Shown in pieces: positions 14,596 to 57,462 of a stretch of 64,000 nt of DNA. Source of the stretch: Branchiostoma floridae (taxonomy: Eukaryota; Chordata; Leptocardii; Amphioxiformes; Branchiostomatidae). The stretch's first letter is position 1, and every line of letters begins with the position of its first letter. Under the pieces are notes generated by a model that was not told the DNA's origin, did not search any database, and worked only from the letters and a program-made list of their open reading frames with translations. Both the position numbers and the translations under genes were made by a program. The stretch lies in NCBI RefSeq assembly GCF_000003815.2, contig NC_049983.1:1477999-1541998 (forward strand), read 5' to 3'.

Positions 14596-17500
14596 TTATG
14601 TCCCCTTGAGATATGGTAGGTATATACGTGCCACAGGGGAATAAGAACCACGCACTTCATAGGTCTTATCCGGTAAATTGGCATTCAAGTCTCTCCAGGC
14701 ATCAGTAGACCTGTCATACACAAAAACAAGATATATAATGCCTTCCTGAGAGTCGCTAGTACAGGTTAATAACACGTGCAGCTGGTTCTCCAGTACGAAA
14801 AAAATGGTCCGATAATCAACATAAAAGTTTTCTAGGTTCGGCAAGCCCTTCAGCTCCTGCCAGCGGTCTGACTCTGTATCGTACACCATAGCCTTAGTGA
14901 ATATAAAGTCCGAGCAGAAAATTTCCGTTCCTATAGCAACAGCTGTGCTGACATCCGTTATGAGTGTTGGTGGGGTCCTCTCGAACCAACGGTCCTGTTT
15001 CGGGTCGTAGCAATACACTTCCGTGTCCGTGAGGAAATACAGGTTTGGGCCACAGGACAATACTACAAACGACGCTAGAGTCGTGTTAAGTCTCAGCTGT
15101 GTACACTCCTGCCACTGGTTTGTGTGCGGGTTGTACTTTCTCATCTGCAGCAGTGGTCTGTCTTCTTCAGGATCAACAGCAGTGTAATACAGAATCCCAT
15201 CAACTTCATAAAGGCCTCTCTCATACATATTATCATCTTCTGGTCCCTTAGATATGGAGGACACACCTGCTTGTTCCCACACGTTTTGTTCATGGTTGTA
15301 CTTAAACAGAGACAACTGATTCTCCTCGTCTGATTCCTCAGTATCTAGGATATAGATGTCGTTATCACTGGTGACTGTCATGTCACGGACATAAGGGAGG
15401 TCGTAACTGCAGCTGATGTACTTCCCTTCCTGAGGGTTCATGAAGAGGAACTCCTTGATTACGGAACTGGAGAGGGTTAAAAAACACAGTCAGTAAACCT
15501 GGAGCGATAATTCATATCTTTTTATTGGGATGAGGCTAAAATCACATGCACTGTTCTATCTTATTTTGTAGCTCCTTGAGAAACATCCTTTAAAGCATTA
15601 GTAGGAATTAGATTAATAGTAGAACAAAATGACGGTACAATGGCCTAGTGGCTAGAGTGTTCGCATTCGGAAGGTCGTGAGTTCGATCCCGGCCAAGTCA
15701 TACCAAAGACTATAAAAATGGTACATGCTGCTTTCTCTGCTTAGCACTCAGCATTCGGGAAAGAGTATGGAAGTTGAACACACACCACTACCAGTGGACT
15801 AGCCCTCTGCTGTAGTGATTGCGTTGTGTGTGGTCCAGGGCTAATGAAACAGAGATGGGCACCGCCATATGCGCCACAAATGGGCACCGCCCTTGGCGCG
15901 GGAAGGGTTTAACTTTTTTAACTAACATTATGCAAGGATTAATCACGACTAACATTGTACAAAGTCAGAACAAATAAAAAAGTATATGTATAACTAACCT
16001 ACGGGGATAGTTCAACAGCACAGCCATCTCTGTAGTCATCCCAAGCCTCGGCTTCAGGTTGGGATTCCCTTTCTGTACCGCATTCCTGATGACCGCAGAA
16101 CTCCCAAGATCTTCTCTGGCCAGGGGGTGATCCAGGATGGCTGCCGTGTCGTCTGAGGTCAGCAGGTTGAAGCGGATGTGAGGGAGGATGGTGGGTAGGT
16201 GGTGCAGTCTGTAGGGTACAGGATAGTGGTACATAGTCTACAGCTGTATTTGCATCTTATAAGTTTTTCAACAATGCAAAGAAATCTAGGATGTTGGGAA
16301 TTGAACCCAAAATTAAGACATGTGTGAGTGTCATACAGAGAATCCGCACTCCAAATAATGATACCTACCTGTCCTCTCTACTGTGCTGCACCCATCTCAC
16401 CACAGCCTCCCACACTGTTGTCTCCTCTGTAACACACAGCTCATCGTGGCTGATGATCTCAATCAGCTGATTCACACTCAGGCTGCAGAATTCCTCTCTA
16501 AAGGAAAACTGTGGAGGTGCCGAGTACATGTTGGTTAAGCCTTAACATATAGCTCGTTAAAATTGAACACTTAACACAACAAATTACGGAATATTCCTTT
16601 CGAGTGGTCTTCTGATAGCCATACAAAAGTTACTTGAGTTAGTGCAAGACAAACTTCTTTTATTCAAGATTGATGATGATAAAAGTGATGGACTACCAAA
16701 ATATCAGTCCCACCTCAGCGAAGTTTATATCGATCCACTCCACACAACGCCTCAGGACAAAATCCACGGAAAAAACATCAGCAAAATTGTACAAGTCCAC
16801 ACAGGTGGAGTGCTCCACATTCATGGCCATGTAGCTGCTGCAGGTGTCTCTCACATATTCCAGTTGGAGGAGGTCGGCTGCCTGGTACAGGGGCTGCACT
16901 TTGTCCAGGGACACATGGAGGGTTCCCGAGTAGATGTAACTCAGGATCTCCCCAAACATGCCTGCATCCACACCCTGCAAAACAGGAAATCGTAACATGG
17001 CTCAAACGTTTAACACATAATGTGCAATTATCAGGGTGTATAAAGAAGAAAAAAATATATCACAAAATTGATTCATTACCTTATGAAGGTCAACTTTCCT
17101 CCAAATCCAATTGTTATTTTATCTACATAATCACTACTCTTTCTTACTAGTGGTACATCTGTTTCTAATAACTGTAAAGGATTCTTTTTTGTTAAAAAAA
17201 TACATACTCATTATAATGTGGTCACAAAGTTGAACTTTGACCCAGATTTTACAGAGGTCAGTAGGTGGGGAGGGGGGCATTGTGAGATCGAGGGACAAAG
17301 GAACGTTTAACATTTGTTCTTTTTTGGTAAACAATGGATTTCCCCTGTTTAATATGTTCTCTATTGTACGTAGCATCTTTGGAAGTTATCTGTTTCACTC
17401 TAATCTAACTCTACTCTACACCAACCCTACCTGTAAAACAACCGTCTTCTGACGACTTTCCGCCATGTCACTTGTAAACATGGCCCTGAAGTAGGGGCTG

Positions 17501-46219: not shown

Positions 46220-46852
46220 ACTGTCGTAACTGTCGTGCTGTCGTGTAACTGTTGTGCTGCCGTGTAACTGTCGTGCTGCCCTGTAATTGTCGTGTTACCG
46301 TGTAACTGTCGTGCTACCGTGTAACTGTCGTGCTGTCGTGTAACTGTTGTGCTGCCGTGTAACTGTCGTGCTGCCCTGTAACTGTCGTGCTGCCCTATAA
46401 CTGTCGTGCTACCGTGTAACTGTTGTGCTGCCGTGTAACTGTCGTGCTGCCCTGTAACTGTCGTGCTGCCCTGTAACTGTCGTGCTACCGTGCAACTGTT
46501 GTGCTGCCGTGTAACTGTCGTGCTGCCGTGTAACTGTCGTGCTGCCCTGTAACTGTCGTGCTTCCGTGTAACTATCGTGCTGCCGTGTAACTGTCGTGCT
46601 ACCGTGTAACTGTCGTGCTACCGTGTAACTGTCGTGCTGTCGTGTAACTGTCGTGCTGCCGTGTAACTGTAGTGCTGTCGTGTAACTGTCGTGCTGTCGT
46701 GTAACTGTCGTGCTGTCGTGTAACTGTCGTGCTGTCAGGTAACTGTCATGCTGTCAGGTAACTGTCGTGCTGTCAGGTAACGGTCGTGCTGTCAGGTAAC
46801 TGTCATGCTGTCAGGTAACTGTCGTGCTGTCAGGTAACGGTCGTGCTGGCTG
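46220..46852. repeat. 19-bp minisatellite, about 33 copies
   Basis: Unit tgtcgtgctgccgtgtaac with substitutions (tgctaccg, tgctgtcg, tgctgccct) repeated head to tail over about 630 bp. The last units change to tgctgtcaggtaac, showing local higher-order spread. It lies between the live zinc-finger gene and its degenerate fingers. Confidence 0.92.
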
Positions 46853-47066: not shown

Positions 47067-47928
47067 TTAAACAGTCCTATATCCACACTCTCCACACATG
47101 TAGGGTTTCACACCACTGTGTATTGCTGATTTATGGATGTCCAATGTGCATTTCTGTGCTGAAGAATACTCGCACTGGTCACACTTGTAGGGTTTTTCTC
47201 CGGTGTGGGTTCGCATATGTCTGGATAACTTACACTTTTGAACAGTCTTGTACCCGCACTCTTCACACATGTAGGATTTCTCCCCACTGTGTATTGCTAA
47301 TCTATGGATGTCCAAAGAGCATTTCTGCCCTGCAGAATACTCACACTGGTCACACTTGTAGGGTTTTTCTCCGGTATGAGTTCTCATATGTCTGGATAAG
47401 GTAGATTTTTTAACTGCCCTGTACCCACACTCACCACACATGTAGAGTTTCTCACCAGTGTGTTTTGCTGCTATATGTTCGTCAAGGTTGGGTTTCTTTG
47501 CTGCAGAATAGTTACAATGCTCACATTTGTAAGGTCTTTTTCCTGTATGATTTTTCATATGTTGATACACACTTGGCCTGTGGGCGGTTCTGAAACCACA
47601 CTCCCTACACATGTAGGGTTTCTCACCGTGTTTTTTTACCAGATGTGTAAACAAATCCTTTTTATGCATTGTAGAATAGTCACACTGGTCACAACGATAA
47701 GGTTTTTTTCCGATACGGGCTCCAATGCGTTCAGACAAAACAGTCTCCGCACACACCAAGTGTTTTTCATCAGCGTTAATCGATTTGACTTGTTCTGCTT
47801 CTATCTGGTCTTCTGCATGTCTTACTTTTCTGTGGCAGTCAACCTGGGAAACCCCTGTGAGAGGCCCACCATGGAAGTTGTTATCTACTTCGGTGTGATA
47901 CCTTTGTCTTGTCGTTTCCATTATGAAC
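47067..47928 (-). CDS. C2H2 zinc-finger protein 1, truncated array
   Basis: A coding exon begins after ttttctctcag (acceptor at 47929); Met lies 7 nt in (47921). The 284-residue protein has a ~80-residue N-terminal part without a recognised domain (no KRAB or BTB). Seven complete C2H2 fingers follow, alternating (Y/F)xC(D/E)xC(D/N/E)YS and YMC(G/E)ECGYRT types with TGEKPY linkers. It ends in an eighth finger cut at GYRTV by TAA. Two finger types in alternation suggest the array grew by duplication of finger pairs. Probable DNA-binding nuclear protein. Even-numbered fingers use HX3H, while fingers 1, 3, 5 and 7 have HX4H spacing (for example HRLAIH). A 5' non-coding exon upstream is expected but not identified. 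Loss of the tail may or may not abolish function. Confidence 0.78.
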
Positions 47929-48274
47929 CTGAGAGAAAATGAATGATTAAAAAAAAGTCATCGAATATTTATACAGAAGAAAGTACACTGGTATATATTG
48001 TTCTGATTTGATCAGGATATAAAAGTTCGATGTACTACAACTTATACAACAGCAATTCTGGCATGTTGCACAATAAGAAAAAACAATAGAATTATTAAAT
48101 TATGACCAGGTAAATTAGGCAGGTCCAAGCTAGGCTAGTAGGAGAATGCAAAGTTGGTTACTCAAATCCTTTGGTCTCTTTTAAAATTTTTATGAATATC
48201 GGAACATACGGTTTGGTGTTGTTTGTATCTGATAGAAATGAGGATCCCCTAAGCAGTAAATGGACTAGGACATT

Positions 48275-48286
48275 AACTACGGTCGT
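48275..48286 (+). repeat. 5' target site duplication of the Tx1/L1-like LINE
   Basis: aactacggtcgt here is repeated as (a)actacggtcgt at 55740-55751, directly after the poly(A) run. The 11-12 bp direct repeat brackets the LINE. Confidence 0.75.
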
Positions 48287-48627
48287 CTTTTTTGATTCGT
48301 ACGCGGATTTTGCACAGGTCAGACGTGTGTTCCTACGCTCCCGTCTTTGAGTCGATTTTGCTGTGATTTTTCCAAAATTTTTGCTACTTATTCCTAAATA
48401 CGCCCTGCAACTTGCTTCACCTCCGTCTTCTCATTTTTCATACAATTAATTCTCTGTTTATTCTCATTTCTTGTCCCCGTGTGGTCATACCGGCGAGTCG
48501 AGCCCATACAGCGGCGGTAGTCCCGAGGCGGAGCCCCGTCCAAGTCACCAACACAACGCCGAGGAAGGAAGGTAGGAAGGAAGGAAGGACGTAACAACGA
48601 TCGAGACCTGACTCCTGACTCCACGGT

Positions 48628-48636
48628 ATCCTGATC
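48628..48636. repeat. 9-bp target duplication, left
   Basis: ATCCTGATC is repeated exactly at 49993-50001, just outside the inverted ends of the hairpin-array element. Confidence 0.8.
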
Positions 48637-49992
48637 GCAAAAGTACCGAAGTCACGGGTTCCTCTCTCAGCACTCGGTGTCTAGTGCGGAAGGGGCCTTC
48701 CGCACTAGAAGTCTAGTGCCGAAGTTACGTCCGCACTAGGTGTCCAGTGGTGAGTCGACTTCAGCACTGAAAACCCCGATTCACCACTAGAAACCGAGTG
48801 CTGAGACTACCTTCCGCACTAGAAAACGAGTGACGACAAATATTCCGCACTAGAAAACGAGTGACGACAAACATTCCGCACAGGAAAACCAGTGACGACA
48901 AATATTCCGCACTTGAAACTGATTGCTGAAAGCCAGCCTCCGTTACGTTATTTACAGTTCCGGGCAGTTAAAGGTGGTACACATATATAAAAGAAGTGTA
49001 ACAAAACGTTCACCTTGAGCCTGAGAAAGCTGCGTATGGGAGGAAATATCCGTGTCGGGTTTTCAAAGAACAGTACATATCAATTATCTTTCTTATTTAG
49101 ACATTAATTTTTTTCGTGACCAAAGTAGAACTGTCTAAACTGTCTGTATCCGCCACGCAATGATGCATGCGAACGATTGATTGAAAGTAGTCTGCAACTC
49201 AAACACGACAAATGGAGCTGCAACGTTAATGTATTTTGGCATTTTATCTTCGTGAAATTTAGAAAAAGGGAACGAAGCTGACACACTGTTGACATGAGGT
49301 CATCATAAGTACATAACACTTATAATATACATGTAGGATGTAGCGTATGATACACACATGCTGTTTGAGTTCCGACAGAGACAAGACTAGGCCAAAATTG
49401 ATTTAAAATACTGAGTAAGTGACCGTCCGAAGGTGAGTAGGCGCTGCTGCATGTCAAGTATGTTTTTGAGTAACGATTTGGACGCGAGCACTGGAAACCC
49501 AGTGCTGACGGTCTTAAAATGATAGTAGCACTCGGCTTCTAGTGCCGAAGTGGTCTTAGCACTCGGCCTCTAGTGCCGAAAAGTCACCGAGCACTAGAAA
49601 TCCCAGTGCGGAACCCGTGACTTAGGTAGATCGGCACTGGCGGTTATCCAGTGCTCAATGACCTCCGCACTGGGTAACCAGTGCTGAACCACCCTTCAGC
49701 ACTAGAAACCGAGTGCTGAGCGGAGATCAGCACTAGAAACCGAGTGCTGAGCGGAGATCAGCACTAGAAACCGAGTGCTGGGCGGAGTTCGGCACTGGAA
49801 AACGAGTGCCGAGACAAGGTGTAGCTCTGGAATTCCAGTGCTGACGGGTCTCAGCACTCGAACAAAGCCGTTCCGCACTGGAATTCCTGTGCGGAAGTTT
49901 CTTCCGCACTGGGCCCCGAGTGCCGACGCCATTTTCTCCACGTATTCCGCACTGGGCGCCCTGTGCGGAACCCGTGACTTCGGTATACTTGC
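48637..49992. mobile_element. Inverted-repeat element built of short hairpin units, with 9-bp duplication
   Basis: Left end gcaaaagtaccgaag... and right end ...cttcggtatacttgc are inverted copies; taccgaagtcacgggttcc is matched over 19 bp exactly. The element is 1,356 bp. A perfect 9-bp direct repeat flanks it. Two arrays (48675-48925 and 49485-49975) consist of about 25 units of the form (t/c)c(a/c)gcact(a/g)gaaanc(g/c)agtgc(t/g)ga, each a small stem-loop pairing gcact with agtgc. The central 0.55 kb is non-repetitive and has no ORF. A 9-bp duplication is typical of Mutator-like DNA transposons (recall), but no transposase is present, so the class is inferred. It is inserted in the 5' UTR of the LINE. 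Confidence 0.8.
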
Positions 49993-50001
49993 ATCCTGAT
50001 C
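49993..50001. repeat. 9-bp target duplication, right
   Basis: ATCCTGATC, identical to 48628-48636. Removing one copy and the element joins ccacggt to agcgtttcc without a gap in the LINE leader. Confidence 0.8.
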
Positions 50002-50279
50002 AGCGTTTCCAGCGTTTTCTGAGCAGTGTTTCCTGTGGACCGGCGAGGAATTACGAACCCCAAACTCGGTGCAGACAACTAACGCCGGCGTCACTGGGGC
50101 CGAGAACAATAGAGACAGGTCATACGTTCTCCTGACTGTATTTTCATCTGTATTTACATCGTACTTTATTGCTGAAACAACGACCGAAGCCTGACAAACA
50201 CGGCATACCGGTCAGATTGAGAGAAAAGATCAATCAATAAAGCAACTTATCCCCAAGTAACTTTGAAGAAGAAACCAAC

Positions 50280-51488
50280 ATGGCGACAGGAATGGCGTCT
50301 GTTGACAACGCTTGGTGTCGGGTCAGGAACGACCAAACGTTACCGCCCGTGAGACCAGAGTCACAGCGTCGCTCTGTTATGCCAGTGTTCCTGAAGAACA
50401 GAGAAATTGTGGGAGAGGAAGATCGGGCCTTCACGACAAGGGAAATATGTGGTGCGTTGGAAAAGGTCGCCGGTTATAACTCCGTAGATGGTGCACAAAG
50501 GATCAGGGGCCTATGGCGGATCTACCCCCTGACGGAGAGCGCCCGTGTAACCATCCTGCTGCACGGAGTCACCCTGCGTAACCGACACTTTCAACCCTAC
50601 AGCGAGAATCCTTTTGTCGTCAAAGGAACAGCGGACATACCTACCACCAGAGTTTACGTAAGTGAGATCCCCTTGTCCTTCAGTAACAACGAGATCAAGG
50701 AGTGCTTCGTAAACCTTGGCTGTAAGTTCCATAGCAACATCATCGATGAGAGAGATCGTGATGAAAACAAACGGCTGACTAGGTGGAAGACGGGTAGAAG
50801 GTTCTTCCACATAGAAATCCGCAACCAGCCGCTACCACCCGTCCTTGCTATGGGACCGTTCAGAGCTAAGGTGTATCATAAAGAACAGAGAGATGCCGAA
50901 AGGAGACAGTCGACGATCTGTAAGAACTGCAAAGAGAATGGACACACGATGTCTAACTGCCCTGAGCCACAGAGGTGTTTCGACTGTGGTCTGCACGATC
51001 ACAAGAGAGGTGATCCCGCCTGCCTCCACATAGTGAGTGACACCGAAGCTCAGCAAGAACCTGCTCCCACAGTTGACACTGAAACCACACTGTCACCCTC
51101 TCCGGAACTGGTAATCGACCAGTTCTTCACAAAGTATGTCTCAAGAGAGAACATGTCCAGCCCTACGGAAGAGGACGACACGGTGTCAACAAACACTTCC
51201 GCAAACGTTGCCGTGGCAACAGAGTCTGATCCCAGCTGGGGTGAGGAATGCGGAAGTGCCGCCTCGGAACAGTCCAAACAAACCCGGGGCCCGCTTGATC
51301 GCTTTCTGCGTAAAGCGAGAGCCAGTGCGACAGAGAACTCAAGAAAGACATCGCAGAAGAAGAAGAAGCAACCTGCTAGCCAGAAGCGACCTCGAGACAG
51401 CCCGCCAGCCGTGGCGTCCGAACCCTCACGGAAGCAGCTGAGGAACGCCCCACCCCCACCTGAACATGGCTCCGGCGGCGCGACCTAG
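50280..51488 (+). CDS. LINE ORF1 protein with RRM-like region and zinc knuckles
   Basis: 402 residues. The context aaccaacATGGCG is a fair start. Residues about 125-205 (TTRVYVSEIPLSFSNNEIKE ... RRFFHIEI ... FRAKVYHK) look like an RNA-recognition-type fold. Residues 214-248 contain two CCHC knuckles: CKNCKENGHTMSNC and CFDCGLHDHKRGDPAC. The C-terminal third is Ser/Thr/Lys-rich and probably disordered. This architecture is typical of ORF1 in Tx1/L1-like elements, where it coats the LINE RNA. It is followed after 61 nt by ORF2 in another frame (50280 and 51550 differ by one frame). It overlaps only shadow frames on the other strand. Confidence 0.88.
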   Translation: MATGMASVDNAWCRVRNDQTLPPVRPESQRRSVMPVFLKNREIVGEEDRAFTTREICGALEKVAGYNSVDGAQRIRGLWRIYPLTESARVTILLHGVTLRNRHFQPYSENPFVVKGTADIPTTRVYVSEIPLSFSNNEIKECFVNLGCKFHSNIIDERDRDENKRLTRWKTGRRFFHIEIRNQPLPPVLAMGPFRAKVYHKEQRDAERRQSTICKNCKENGHTMSNCPEPQRCFDCGLHDHKRGDPACLHIVSDTEAQQEPAPTVDTETTLSPSPELVIDQFFTKYVSRENMSSPTEEDDTVSTNTSANVAVATESDPSWGEECGSAASEQSKQTRGPLDRFLRKARASATENSRKTSQKKKKQPASQKRPRDSPPAVASEPSRKQLRNAPPPPEHGSGGAT

Positions 51489-51549
51489 GCATTCCGGAAA
51501 TTCCACGAACTGACCCTAATGTTGACAAACTCGCTCGGTTACCGGACTT

Positions 51550-54500
51550 ATGGCTATGGACTTTATGAACGGCCGTGACGACGTTAGGCCAAAGTGCACT
51601 GCACATAAACAACAACAAAAGGTACAGAATTCTGATATTAGTTCCAACGATATGTCTTTACTATCACTAAATGTCCGCGGACTGCTTGAAAAAAACAAAA
51701 GAAGGTCATTATTATCATATGTAAAAAACCAAAAGGCTGACATAGTTTTCCTTCAAGAAACGCATTTCACTGCAGAGACAAGAGATGTTTTATCTAGAGA
51801 ATGGCAAGGCCCTTGTTTTCAAGCCTTCGGATCTAATTGTAGCAGGGGGGTAGCAATATTGATTAAGCCTTCAGCCAATTTTATGTTAGTAGACTGTAAG
51901 TACCTAGACAATAATGGAAGAACCCTTCTACTGAAATGCACCATTGATGATACAGAGTTTTGCTTAGTTAACATTTATGCCCCAAATAGAGTTAAAGAAA
52001 GAAATACCTTTATTATGAAACTGTCAGATTGGTTAAGTAGTTTAGACCCTACTAACCTAATTTGTGGTGGAGATATAAATTGTGTATTGAATCCTGAATT
52101 TGATAAAAAGGGAGGTAGACTAGATACTGCAGGAAGGTCTGCTAAAGTTGTGAAAAAGCTATGTTCTAGACTAGAAATATGTGATGCCTATAGGTTAGTT
52201 AACCCCACCACCCGACAGTTTACTTGGCGTAATCTTACAAAAAATGTAGCCTGTAGACTAGACTTTTGGCTAATTCACAAGACCCTTGTAGGAAAAATTG
52301 GCAAATGTGATATAAGACCTGCAATACTTACTGACCACCAGGCTATATTTCTAAAACTCAAATTCCATAACTGTGCCAGAGGCCCTGGAACTTTTAAACT
52401 AAATGTAGATTTATTAAGAGACAAAGAATACTTTGAGAAAATCTGTAACTTAATTCAACAAGAGAGTAATAAGACCACTACATCAAATAGAGATAAACTA
52501 GATTTATGTATGATTAAAGTAACTGAGTTTTCAAAACAATATGGAGCCAAGAAAGCCAGAGAAAGCAGAGAACAGATAGAGAGGTTAGAGAAAAAACTGT
52601 CTTCCCTTCAAAGTGAAATAGATAGTAATCCCACTAATGACCATATACTAGTACTTAGCTACAAGCAAGCACAATCTAGATTAGAAGACCTTTATATGAA
52701 AAAATCACATGGAGCATATGTAAGAGCTAGAGCCAAATGGAGAGAAGAGGGAGAAAAACCTACTAAGTACTTCTTAAACTTGGAAAAGAAAAGAGGAAGT
52801 GACAAGGATATTAACTTGTTATCCATTGATGGGAGAGAGATTAGTAGAGACTCAGATATTCTTAGTGAATGTAAGGAATACTATGAACAACTATACCAGG
52901 AAGACAATATAAGTGATATAGACATAGATCAGTACTTAGAAAGTGTACAGTTAGAAAATATCTTGAGCCAAACTGACAGAGAATTCTTAGATAAACCAAT
53001 TACTAAAGATGAATGTAAGGATGCCCTTTTCTCTATGAAAGAAAACAAAAGCCCTGGCCTTAATGGCATTCCCTCAGAATTTTTTAAGATGTTTTGGCCC
53101 TATATAGGAGACCTAGTTTATAATTCTATTCAGGAAACATTGATAGAAGGTAAAATGTCTGTTTTGCAAAGACGTGCAATGCTAAGGTTAATACACAAAA
53201 AAAATGAACGCCACAACCTAGACAATTGGAGACCAATTAGCCTTCTCAACACTGAATATAAAATATTTGCCTTTGTTCTTGCCAACAGACTTAAGAAAGT
53301 TTTACACAAGTTGATTAATAATGACCAAACAGCTTATATCAAGGGTAGATTCATTGGACAAAATGTAAGACTAATTAATGATGTTATTGAATATGCTAAA
53401 ACCCAAAATATCCCTGGAGCAGTAATATTCCTGGATTTTACTAAAGCTTTTGACACTTTGAATAGAAAATTTATGTGGAAGGTTCTAGAAAAATTTAACT
53501 TTGGCCCCTCGTTTATCAGTGCAATAAAATGCATGTATAATGACATTAGTAGCACCATCAGTAATAGAGGATGGTTATCTGACTTCTTTCCCTTAAAGAA
53601 AGGCATACGCCAAGGCTGTCCCATATCTGCTCTTTTATTCATCCTCACAGTAGAGATTATGGCTGTAAAGATCAGACAGGCACAAGACGTGGAAGGAATT
53701 AAAGTTAAAACCCATTCTAATGAAACTGTTGACATTAAAATCTCACAGGTAGCTGATGATACCACCTTGTTTGTATCTGACCTTACATCAATGGAAAATG
53801 CCTTCAAACTTATTCAAGATTTCTGTAGTGTTTCAAGCCTAAATCTAAATGTTAAAAAATGTGAAGGTTTATGGATTGGATCCTATGTTGACAGACAAGA
53901 CACCCCCTTGGGTATATCTTGGCCAAAGACACCTATAAAATCCCTAGGTATATACTTCTGTAACTCATCCCTACACCATGAATGTGAACTGCTAAACTGG
54001 GAGAAAAAGATAGAAAGACTGAAAACCACACTTCAAATCTGGAAAGGTAGAAACCTAACTCTATATGGAAAAGTTACTGTCTTAAAATCCCTTGCCCTTT
54101 CACAAATAATCTATAACATGTCTATGATTCTTACCCCACCTTGGGTGATAAACATTGTAAAGAAAGAAATATTTACTTTCCTGTGGAATGGTAAAAAAGA
54201 TAAGATTAAAAGAGATGTTGTTAGCCAACCTATTGAGCAGGGAGGATTAGGCCTGACAAACTTAGATCTCCAAAGACAAGCCCTACTTGCATCCTGGATA
54301 CCAATATTAGTGACAAATGACAACGCAAGATGGAAAGTTATTGCGTTAACATTTATAAACTCCCTTGGTCAAGACAATTTGCTATTGCATATGAACTTTA
54401 CTTCTGATAAAGATGGTCCTGACATGAGTAAATTCCCCACATTTTATAAACAGGTAATATCATCCTTCCACTCTGCTGGTGGAGGAGGTAAGAACAAACC

Positions 54501-55446
54501 CTCTAGTGTAAGTGAAATAATGGGTGAAACTATATGGTGCAAAAAATATATAAGGTCACAAGGTAAAACAATTTTCTTCCCAACCTGGATAAAAAATGAC
54601 ATAATATTCGTAAAAGACATTTTCCCCTTAGACAGGTTCATGTCTCTAGATCACTACCCTCAGCTTAACCTAAACACAAGACCTAATGGTATTATTGAAT
54701 ATATAACTCTGTTTCAAGCTATACCTCTTACATGGAAGAATGCAATAAGAAACCATAGAGGCCCAATTCCTTATCAAAGATTAGAGCTTAACACCCTTAC
54801 CCCATGTATATTTGATGGTAAAACAACAAAACAAATCAAAAGCAAAAACACCTGCAAATTGTTTTATAATGCATTAGTGCAGGCACAGGCCAAGGAACCA
54901 ACATGCTGTAAAAAATGGCAATCCATATTTCCTACTGAAACCCTGGCTTGGGAAAATATCTGGAGATGGTTAAGCACACAGACCTGTATAGACACTAAGT
55001 TAGCAGAGTTAAACTACAAACTATTACACCGAATATTACCATGTGCACACAATCTGCACAAATGGGGTATCAAAGATGAAACGGGACACATATATGATGC
55101 AACATGTACACTATGTAGCAGTGGAAGCATAGAAGATTATGAGCATATGTTCTTTAAATGTGAAAGACTGTGTAATTTCTGGGAATTAGTTAACACATTT
55201 GTACCCTTGCCCAACATAAAAATTACTTTGCAGGAGATTTTATTTGGAAAAATTGATCATTTGATAACTGCTAAAGACCAGAAAAATAGAACCTTTACTG
55301 TTACTGTGGCTAAATGGACAATCTTTAAAACTTGGATCTGGCTTAGAAAAGACCCACACCTGTGCATTACTAGCCTCTTTAATGTCTTTGAAAAGGACTT
55401 CGAAGAACGGATATTCCATGATAGACTGACAGCCAATGTAGATTGA
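51550..55446 (+). CDS. LINE ORF2: AP-type endonuclease, reverse transcriptase, CCHC
   Basis: 1,298 residues, uninterrupted. Endonuclease residues: LNVRG (N41), LQETH (E70), NIYAPN, GGDINC (about 173-178), CRLDFWLI and TDHQAI (about 261-266). RT motifs: LDNWRPISLL (about 556), NDQTAYIKGRFIGQNVR, FLDFTKAFDTL (about 627-637), IRQGCPIS (about 685) and VADDTTLF (about 734), where the usual F/Y-A-D-D has Val first, as in several L1/Tx1-type RTs. A C-terminal zinc-binding motif CTLCSSGSIEDYEHMFFKC lies near 1185. It performs nicking and target-primed reverse transcription. All catalytic residues that can be read are intact. The first ATG at 51550 is taken as start; the endonuclease begins 35 residues in (DMSLLSLNV), so a later Met is possible. 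Codon use is A/T-rich, unlike the neighbouring ORF1. Confidence 0.92.
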   Translation: MAMDFMNGRDDVRPKCTAHKQQQKVQNSDISSNDMSLLSLNVRGLLEKNKRRSLLSYVKNQKADIVFLQETHFTAETRDVLSREWQGPCFQAFGSNCSRGVAILIKPSANFMLVDCKYLDNNGRTLLLKCTIDDTEFCLVNIYAPNRVKERNTFIMKLSDWLSSLDPTNLICGGDINCVLNPEFDKKGGRLDTAGRSAKVVKKLCSRLEICDAYRLVNPTTRQFTWRNLTKNVACRLDFWLIHKTLVGKIGKCDIRPAILTDHQAIFLKLKFHNCARGPGTFKLNVDLLRDKEYFEKICNLIQQESNKTTTSNRDKLDLCMIKVTEFSKQYGAKKARESREQIERLEKKLSSLQSEIDSNPTNDHILVLSYKQAQSRLEDLYMKKSHGAYVRARAKWREEGEKPTKYFLNLEKKRGSDKDINLLSIDGREISRDSDILSECKEYYEQLYQEDNISDIDIDQYLESVQLENILSQTDREFLDKPITKDECKDALFSMKENKSPGLNGIPSEFFKMFWPYIGDLVYNSIQETLIEGKMSVLQRRAMLRLIHKKNERHNLDNWRPISLLNTEYKIFAFVLANRLKKVLHKLINNDQTAYIKGRFIGQNVRLINDVIEYAKTQNIPGAVIFLDFTKAFDTLNRKFMWKVLEKFNFGPSFISAIKCMYNDISSTISNRGWLSDFFPLKKGIRQGCPISALLFILTVEIMAVKIRQAQDVEGIKVKTHSNETVDIKISQVADDTTLFVSDLTSMENAFKLIQDFCSVSSLNLNVKKCEGLWIGSYVDRQDTPLGISWPKTPIKSLGIYFCNSSLHHECELLNWEKKIERLKTTLQIWKGRNLTLYGKVTVLKSLALSQIIYNMSMILTPPWVINIVKKEIFTFLWNGKKDKIKRDVVSQPIEQGGLGLTNLDLQRQALLASWIPILVTNDNARWKVIALTFINSLGQDNLLLHMNFTSDKDGPDMSKFPTFYKQVISSFHSAGGGGKNKPSSVSEIMGETIWCKKYIRSQGKTIFFPTWIKNDIIFVKDIFPLDRFMSLDHYPQLNLNTRPNGIIEYITLFQAIPLTWKNAIRNHRGPIPYQRLELNTLTPCIFDGKTTKQIKSKNTCKLFYNALVQAQAKEPTCCKKWQSIFPTETLAWENIWRWLSTQTCIDTKLAELNYKLLHRILPCAHNLHKWGIKDETGHIYDATCTLCSSGSIEDYEHMFFKCERLCNFWELVNTFVPLPNIKITLQEILFGKIDHLITAKDQKNRTFTVTVAKWTIFKTWIWLRKDPHLCITSLFNVFEKDFEERIFHDRLTANVD

Positions 55447-55722
55447 TTGTACAAATTTTCTATTGATAGTTTGGCATGAACTGCACCTACTGTTAGACTT
55501 CTCCATTTTTGATCATAGTGTAATATCAGACTGTACATATTCCTTAAGGTTCCCCAGATGTACTACATGTATCTGTCTCTTCTAACTGTTCCACTACCCA
55601 TGTACTGCATGTAATTCGTCCAGACACACCAGTATATGTTATCCCTCCATGTGCAATGGTACTCAACTGTACAAAATCTTGTCTTAGTTGTTGACAAATG
55701 TACTGTTGTTGTTGTTGTTTTT

Positions 55723-55740
55723 AAAAAAAAAAAAAAAAAA
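55723..55740 (+). other. LINE poly(A) tail
   Basis: A run of 18 A follows a (GTT)n stretch and ends exactly at the 3' copy of the target duplication. Confidence 0.85.
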
Positions 55741-55820
55741 ACTACGGTCGTGTGAAACACCCGATTCGAGTCCGGACAGTATTGGTTGGGAGACCACCAA
55801 GGAAGGCTGGATGCTGTAGC
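55741..55820 (+). pseudogene. 5S rRNA-like sequence (pseudogene or 5S-derived SINE head)
   Basis: actacggtcgtgtgaaa, cacccgattcgagtccgg, agtattggttgggagaccacc and ggctggatgctgtagc follow the order of 5S rRNA. The C-box-like ttggttgggagacc and the terminal gctgtag are best kept. It is 80 bp against about 120 for 5S, with an internal loss of roughly 35-40 bp, so it is not a working 5S gene. The sequence that follows could be a SINE body. Assigned from recalled 5S consensus. Confidence 0.68.
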
Positions 55821-57462
55821 CCGAAGAATCCAAGAATTCGTCTTTCGTAATTGTACGGAATCCCCAAATCCCGTGGGATGTGCAAAAAGGTGACTCTCTA
55901 CTGTATTACTAAATAAGTAAATGTATTACTATCATTAACGGACGGATTTTACCAACATTTAATTGTTGCTTTAAAAGATTACATCCGAATGTTCCTTACA
56001 CATCATTTAATACCCATTATATATGACTTACGGAGGTGATTACGGAGTCAGTTTCGTTTAGGCCCCCCTCCCACTTCATGTAATACCATATTCATATCTG
56101 GAATAAAACGATAAATTATCAACTTACTATACTTTTCCCTCCACAGAATGGAACGGACATTCGTAAGCTTGATAAGAAAACACTTGGGTGTTCACAGTTA
56201 TATGCCTTCCCTGTTTACTACAGCGATTTTTCTCCTCACGTTAACTGGGACCCGAGCTGCTTTCCTTCTCGGTCTTATCGGGGTCAGTGGTAAAGGTGAC
56301 CTAGTTTAAAGGTGAATATATGGTCCTGATGGTACAGATCATGTCCTTGCATTTTGCCGCCAGGTTAAGGTTTGACAGGGTCTGGTCGTTTGTACAGGTT
56401 AGCACACAAGTCATATCATCATTGTTCTTTGATATCGATTAGGGGGATTTGTAAAATTTATAATCACGTTATGAATAAAGACACGAAAATTTGCGATTTA
56501 CTCAGACCCTGATTCATTCTATCTAAGGAAATAACTGTCATCTAAAATAGAGAACTCGTACCTCTATGAAAAGTAGTCAGCATTTGTAGAAATGATTGAA
56601 ATGATAGTTTTATCTTATCTATAATCATTATTCTTTACCGTTAGTGATGAAAAGCTTGGATATGATTTAGACCTGTCAGCGATGTGACGTTGACATATTA
56701 TGACAGGGATAATTTCGGCGCATGGTCGGGCAGATTGCAAGAACGAATGTTATGACTTACAATATGTGTGTATTTCTAGATGTTCAGTTAGATTACAACT
56801 ACCTTACAGTACAAGAAGAAATCCCTAACATCATTAAGTGTTGCAATGTTATGGAAAAATCTTTTCCACCTAAACTAAAAAAAAGAACAACAGGCTAATT
56901 AGAACGGTTGTTTTATATCTGTGGCTGATTGAAACATCCCTACTGGTGATATGTTTGACCCTGGATAAGTAAATAAAAATTAAATTAAATATACAGTTCC
57001 TAAAAACATCCCGGCCGGGTGACGGTTTGAAAGTGTTACACTAGCACATAATGGTAACAACTGTTCTGTAAAATCATGAAGCACAGAGTTTCTCTTCATT
57101 CTACTTGAATGCTGCTGTTATATGGAGTCAATGGACACATTACGCTGTAACGTGTACAGTGTACAGTATACGGTCAAACTGGGGAACTTCGCATTATTGC
57201 ACATGTCAGATACTTGCACGAAATACGCTGTAAATGTTGTGTGCAATTAAACGGATGCAATTAAATCTACTGTAACTTCCTTGCTGTGGCACTGCTTCGA
57301 GTTTTAAAATAATGATAATATTTTGCGCGAATTATCCTGCCATTATTATCTTTCCTACCAGATTTCACCTCTTGCCTAAAATGTGCAACTTTTTGTTTTG
57401 TTTGCTACGCTCAAAACCACGTGTAAAGTGCTATGCGTCAATCGCTGGTTTGACCCAAAGTG
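55821..57462. other. Spacer between the LINE and zinc-finger gene 2
   Basis: About 55821-55935 may be the body of a 5S-headed SINE. The rest is AT-rich with no gene recognised. Confidence 0.4.

Follow-up and report, generated by a model that had tools for sequence, protein, structure and literature searches.

The window, a 64-kb stretch of lancelet DNA, contains a LINE on the plus strand, and in the 5′ part of this LINE, downstream of its start at 48287 and upstream of the first long frame (50241), sits a palindromic element of 1356 bp whose coordinates, 48637-49992, are exact. The features of the locus are listed below, where TIR stands for terminal inverted repeat and frames run from stop to stop.

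48275-48286 and 55740-55751, no strand: LINE target duplication, 12 bp, AACTACGGTCGT, an exact repeat flanking the LINE
48287-55739, plus strand: surrounding LINE, ~7.45 kb including the nested element, with 12-bp duplication, poly-A and coding frames
48628-48636, no strand: left target-site duplication, 9 bp, ATCCTGATC, directly abutting the element
48637-48662, plus strand: left TIR, 26 bp, its inner 19 bp (48644-48662) exact
48668-48928, no strand: left array, 9 units starting at 48668, 48700, 48731, 48762 (degenerate), 48782, 48814, 48845, 48876 and 48907
48936-49480, no strand: core without two-sided units, between left and right arrays
49486-49611, no strand: inner right array, 4 units starting at 49486, 49526, 49557 and 49589 (longer loop)
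49610-49628, minus strand: internal extra copy of the 19-bp TIR core, 18/19, in right-end orientation
49632-49968, no strand: outer right array, 11 units starting at 49632 (longer loop), 49665, 49697, 49728, 49759, 49790, 49822, 49852 (degenerate), 49873, 49904 and 49947
49967-49992, minus strand: right TIR, 26 bp, inverted match to the left end
49993-50001, no strand: right target-site duplication, 9 bp, ATCCTGATC, directly abutting the element
50241-51485, plus strand: LINE upstream frame, 415 codons, no Pfam match at E 0.001
51526-55443, plus strand: LINE long frame, 1306 codons, endonuclease and reverse transcriptase domains

The right copy of AACTACGGTCGT directly follows the poly-A tract of the LINE and shares its first two A with the tail. 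Because the long frame is open and the duplication exact, the LINE appears to be young, and it is possibly a recently active copy. The stretch at 55740-55822 is a degenerate 5S rRNA-like sequence (Rfam 5S, 19.4 bits against a cut-off of 38; E 0.12) whose first 12 nt are the 3′ duplication of the LINE, which may have inserted at the start of this 5S-derived sequence. In the cited part of PMC3747384, target-specific insertion is mentioned for LINEs of the Tx1 group. This group includes 5S-targeting LINEs, which would suit such a site.

Elsewhere in the window, a minisatellite (46226-46848; ~33 copies of the 19-bp unit GTAACTGTCGTGCTGCCGT) lies close to a C2H2 zinc-finger frame on the minus strand (47070-47957); two C2H2 zinc-finger frames are present in the window, with no shown link to the arrays. 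Between 14596 and 30616, on the minus strand, several frames that are similar when compared by eye (14596, 20061, 26255/26517 and 29702) look like a tandem gene family, and the only one of them that was Pfam-scanned, at 14599-15489, matches kelch models.

Inverted ends and target duplication

The two ends of the element, GCAAAAGTACCGAAGTCACGGGTTCC on the left and GCAAGTATACCGAAGTCACGGGTTCC on the right when read inward, are identical at 23/26 positions, with the inner 19 exact and the three differences confined to the outer 7 bp. When exact 9-bp direct repeats lying 100-5000 bp apart in the window were compared, the ATCCTGATC pair had the best inverted ends (23/26), followed by two pairs with 15/26, which lie among the zinc-finger repeats near 47 kb. 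The 19-bp TIR core, TACCGAAGTCACGGGTTCC, had 3 matches with at most 3 mismatches in the window, against a chance expectation of 0.00: both ends, exactly, and one internal copy, which is attached to its preceding unit in the same way as the right end. The 19-bp exact inverted ends and the mobile insertion with a perfect 9-bp duplication proposed in the initial annotation are thus borne out, the duplication standing directly at 26-bp inverted ends, and nesting in the LINE strengthens the case.

No frame of at least 150 codons lies inside the element, and one minus-strand frame (49702-50211) spans the right array and the right end. Of the 22 frames in the window that span at least 150 codons from stop to stop, 10 were Pfam-scanned, and none of these matches a transposase. 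The TIRs are directly bounded by the target-site duplication, as is expected of a non-autonomous DNA transposon; taken together, the exact 9-bp duplication, the 26-bp TIRs and the lack of an inside frame of at least 150 codons show a transposon-like insertion with no evident gene of its own. Either it inserted after the LINE or it arrived with the parent copy of the LINE, and its nesting there independently supports real, fairly recent mobility. Within the 64-kb window the element has no second copy, and no match longer than 18 bp was found outside it. Its CpG observed/expected ratio is 0.91-1.07 in three parts, compared to 0.71 for the whole window, which may reflect a young or unmethylated insertion.

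The location invites a reading in which the array serves the LINE 5′ region as a tandem-repeat promoter and the inverted ends are a coincidence. All of the element falls upstream of the first long frame and inside the LINE, and some rodent L1s carry 5′ monomer arrays. However, an exact 9-bp duplication at 26-bp inverted ends is unexpected in an internal part of a LINE, and we consider such a promoter very improbable.

Dyad-symmetric units of the terminal arrays

The element carries a left terminal array of 9 and a right one of 15 quasi-palindromic units, 24 in all, in good agreement with the "about 25" stem-loops in two arrays seen initially. Twenty of these match the unit consensus CNGCACTNGNNNNCNAGTGCNG with at most 3 mismatches, two have longer loops (49589 and 49632) and two are degenerate, with one good half each (48762 and 49852). 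The 20 pattern matches are the only ones in the window, while shuffled sequence gave a mean of 1.19 and a maximum of 4. Exact CACT-AGTG pairs with 4-13 bases between them numbered 17 in the element, 15 of them with exactly 8 between, as compared to 8 in the rest of the window, 2 of them with exactly 8 between. Likewise, half-sites with at most 1 mismatch were denser in the 1430 bases that begin at 48601 (34 per kb) than in the window beyond 48001-50400 (7.6 per kb), and two single half-sites at this threshold lie inside the core. The GC content is 39% in the core versus 51% and 56% in the arrays. The first unit of the left array lies 5 bp from the TIR core, and the last unit of the right array overlaps it by 2 bp.

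What is conserved among the units is a dyad site, TCNGCACTNG-N4-CNAGTGCNGA, composed of the half-site T-C-N-G-C-A-C-T-N-G and its mirror image, within which the variable positions vary independently. Mean pairwise identity among the 20 units was 90% at the 14 conserved mirrored columns, a value partly built in because the units were chosen by a palindromic pattern (at most 3 mismatches) and the columns from the alignment; it was 36% at the four N columns, 41% at the central four columns and 37% over the 9 nt after each unit. For the 13 units with the next unit at 30-33 bp, the corresponding values were 92.9, 35.6, 49.4 and 40.5%. The 9 nt after each unit still take in the A and T at the flanks of the extended half-site, and the columns that separate these hold 0.07-0.43 bits. 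Adjacent units are in part recent duplicates of one another. Since adjacent spacers have lost their similarity while the half-sites have not, the half-sites appear to have been kept by selection, which probably acted for mobility in earlier copies.

The spacing of the units is regular. Seventeen of the 22 within-array steps measure 30-33 bp, and the other five are 20, 21, 40, 43 and 43 bp; the typical step of ~31 bp corresponds to ~3 helical turns and the others lie near 2 or 4 turns. The mean distance of the steps from a multiple of 10.5 bp was 0.70, versus 2.63 for uniform steps. For the five non-31 steps alone it was 1.0 (p 0.009 under a uniform 16-46 null), a test of five steps of which all but one stand beside a degenerate, long-loop or reversed unit. 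In a period scan from 8 to 16 these five steps fitted best at 11.0 (resultant 0.80 versus 0.77 at 10.5). The 20- and 21-bp steps adjoin degenerate units, and dropping those units gives two 51-bp steps, 1.5 bp off five turns. With as few as five informative steps, the helical spacing suggests that bound proteins would line up along one side of the helix.

As the units fall short of perfect symmetry, their orientation could be read by comparing eight variable columns with the majority form. Among 20 units, 14 were forward (one by a single column), 3 were reversed (48668, 49526 and 49557) and 3 could not be told; the left array had 7 forward and 1 reversed, and the right array 7 forward, 2 reversed and 3 undecided. 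These counts bear on the idea of a true Foldback element, in which the arrays would have begun as long inverted repeats and decayed later. Tandem repeats do stand near both ends of the element, as in Foldback-type elements, along with a 9-bp duplication, and parts of the two arrays match in inverted orientation (77% over 60 nt). However, direct inter-array matches are as good (77% over 48 nt), forward units form the majority in both arrays, and the spacers match equally poorly between arrays in either sense (0.366 direct, 0.362 inverted). Because the arrays do not look like mutually inverted copies, we set the element apart from a strict Foldback element, and descent from long inverted repeats seems to us most doubtful. 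A site that is its own mirror image does not require arrays that are inverted copies of each other.

Stem pairing and proposed protein binding

The initial annotation held that the units vary in a coupled way, keeping the pairing while the sequence drifts, and proposed that the stems matter for transposase binding, replication or an RNA. As single strands, the arrays indeed fold far better than shuffles (z -6.8 for the left and -12.8 for the right), with no foldback signal in the core (48961-49479, z +2.2). This signal is not decisive, because inverted half-sites fold whatever their role, and the minimum-energy folds mostly pair different units together, with some single-unit hairpins. Among 20 aligned units, of which 17 are distinct, 81.0% of 153 cells were paired, compared to 79.9 ± 1.6% after shuffling of columns; 151/500 shuffles paired as well as the observed units, and the covariation score was 0.089 in both. 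The two variable half-site pairs, scored in 19 distinct 26-nt units, were paired in 9/19 (6.1 in shuffles, p 0.087) and 7/19 (5.7, p 0.33), so that one of the two leans weakly to pairing. Over the 20 units, the 14 conserved columns contained 15 departures, not all independent events since some are inherited by neighbouring duplicate units; 11 break a pair, 4 give G-U and none is compensated. The four units outside these counts behave similarly, with one further uncompensated departure in each longer-loop unit and, in the degenerate units, one half-site kept and the other mostly lost. Even the unit that had been cited as an example, gcactagaaaccgagtgc, places A opposite G in its stem.

Sliding the partners by 1-3 columns left 22.7-52.9% of cells paired and a covariation score of 0.000-0.068, lower than the observed 0.089; at face value this drop opposes a protein site, although the structure of a palindromic consensus yields it without selection on pairing. 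A covariation check run among the units of this one copy found variable positions pairing no more than shuffles and no compensatory stem changes. With three pairing counts as well as the longer-loop and degenerate units failing to support it, we rejected coupled stem variation.

Functional stems, acting as cruciforms, single-stranded hairpins or RNA in replication, cleavage or small-RNA production, would account for the strong folding of the arrays and for the lower pairing of slid partners, the latter being given anyway by a palindromic consensus. Against them stand the lack of covariation beyond shuffles and of any compensated change, the folds between different units, and the Rfam scans, in which no family reached the gathering score in the whole window and a relaxed scan of 48600-50020 returned three microRNA models, all far below cut-off. 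We therefore give functional stems very little credence. The conserved dyad, diverged spacers and helical steps agree better with a protein-binding array than with a hairpin or an RNA, and of the three roles first proposed it is protein binding that the data favour.

In another reading of the same transposon, an accessory factor encoded by the host or by the element (a dimeric zinc-finger, THAP or HTH protein), rather than the transposase, would bind the arrays, which would serve as promoter, enhancer, boundary or silencing target. The conserved pattern resembles protein sites and does not name the protein; moreover, the arrays are large relative to the 26-bp ends, as they likewise are in elements with enhancer or repressor sites, and the window has its two C2H2 zinc-finger frames. 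Yet two-sided units occur only terminally, flanking a unit-free core, and reach to within 5 bp of the TIR core on one side and overlap it by 2 bp on the other, as expected of end sites. An accessory factor is in our judgement a rather unlikely explanation, albeit one to be taken seriously.

The reading we favour, and consider moderately probable, is that of a non-autonomous DNA transposon that moves by cut-and-paste and carries at each end an array of many sites for a dimeric transposase. Its ends would work like those of Foldback-type elements (Muta1, Tm1, Galileo), from which it differs in that most units point the same way in both arrays. An autonomous relative would supply the transposase, and the dimer at each site would most likely be this protein, with one subunit per half-site and successive dimers on one face of the helix. 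The arrays might load many transposase dimers per end, which would give greater specificity for short sites, and once loaded they may help to join the ends and assemble a paired-end complex for cutting at GCAA. Hairpin potential would be a by-product of the inverted half-sites.

Relation to known transposons

Drosophila Foldback (FB) elements have 31-bp tandem repeats and 9-bp duplications. By description rather than by sequence, they share with the element tandem repeats near both ends, the 9-bp duplication and the 31-bp step, and they differ from it in that the element shows no sign of inverted arrays. Families with 8-bp duplications fit a 9-bp duplication less well, and Merlin, which makes 8-9 bp, stays among the candidates. 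Judging from the single 9-bp duplication available, the length is that of Mutator/Rehavkus, the cited part of PMC6446971 giving 8-11 bp for the Mutator superfamily (MULE) and 9 bp for Rehavkus. The Mutator-like placement put forward in the initial annotation is accordingly compatible in duplication length; structure alone cannot place the element, because Foldback-like structure arose in different superfamilies.

Several described systems resemble the element in part, as far as the cited parts of the reports go. Muta1 provides the precedent for a Mutator-like element that is active and has repeat-filled ends, with 9 subterminal repeats; Muta1 and other mosquito Mutator-like elements, with many non-autonomous derivatives of varied cores, share duplications of 8-9 bp and complex ends with a terminal motif (PMC5225508). 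They differ in that their repeats measure 9-15 bp and, in Muta1, lie within the inverted repeat (PMC5225508), whereas the element described here has 24 dyad-symmetric sites at a ~31-bp step, most of them sharing one direction across the two ends. In root-knot nematodes, the Tm1 Mutator/Foldback family likewise makes duplications of 8-10 bp, mostly 9 bp, has composite ends in which a short motif is repeated a variable number of times as well as non-autonomous forms, and shows an asymmetric outermost 7 bp outside the inverted core, of which 3/7 differ here; it is set apart by a ~14-bp repeat within inverted ends, another host and motif, and a known family transposase (PMC3169594). Plant Mutator-like elements with tandem or extra TIRs offer a parallel to the internal copy at 49610-49628, namely an extra TIR inside one end, and differ by long TIRs and plant families, with no palindromic array noted in the cited part of the report (PMC3310237). 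Our working model is taken from Galileo, of the P superfamily, where the THAP domain of the transposase binds sites in the tandem repeats of the long ends, such that several sites for a transposase DNA-binding domain lie inside repetitive ends; Galileo differs by its superfamily, its long true inverted repeats and the three sites located there (PMC3688188).

Searches outside the window covered viral, prokaryote and phage collections, which hold no animal genomes, so that absence of the element there says little. In viral contigs neither the exact 19-bp TIR core nor the two-unit pattern was found (0 matches each), and a distant blastn search of phages gave no match. Prokaryote genome contigs contained 11 stretches with the two-unit pattern, 5/11 from one Geodermatophilus strain; these have no TIR core (at most 4 substitutions) and at most 2 unit-like matches each, and we took them as unrelated palindromes. 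Among the papers listed in a literature search that did not extend to Repbase, the usual place for such families, none was seen to describe the element from its title or the start of its abstract.

It is possible, and we put it forward tentatively, that the element represents a chordate transposon lineage with helically phased, mutually non-inverted arrays of palindromic dimer sites, in which a regular row of transposase dimers would form at each end and only the 26-bp tips would define how the ends are oriented. The element could be a Mutator-type lineage in lancelets. In the cited part of a survey of Mutator-like elements, chordate evidence is limited and no transposases were detected in reported Florida lancelet sequences (PMC6446971), and in 2013 the role of Foldback and Phantom tandem repeats as binding sites was stated to be untested, in the cited part of PMC3688188. 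The element has an unusually clean pattern of 24 regularly spaced units built on a defined dyad half-site, which would make the question of tandem-repeat binding testable by short DNA probes once a partner transposase is found; it also provides a handle for finding a lancelet Mutator-like transposase.
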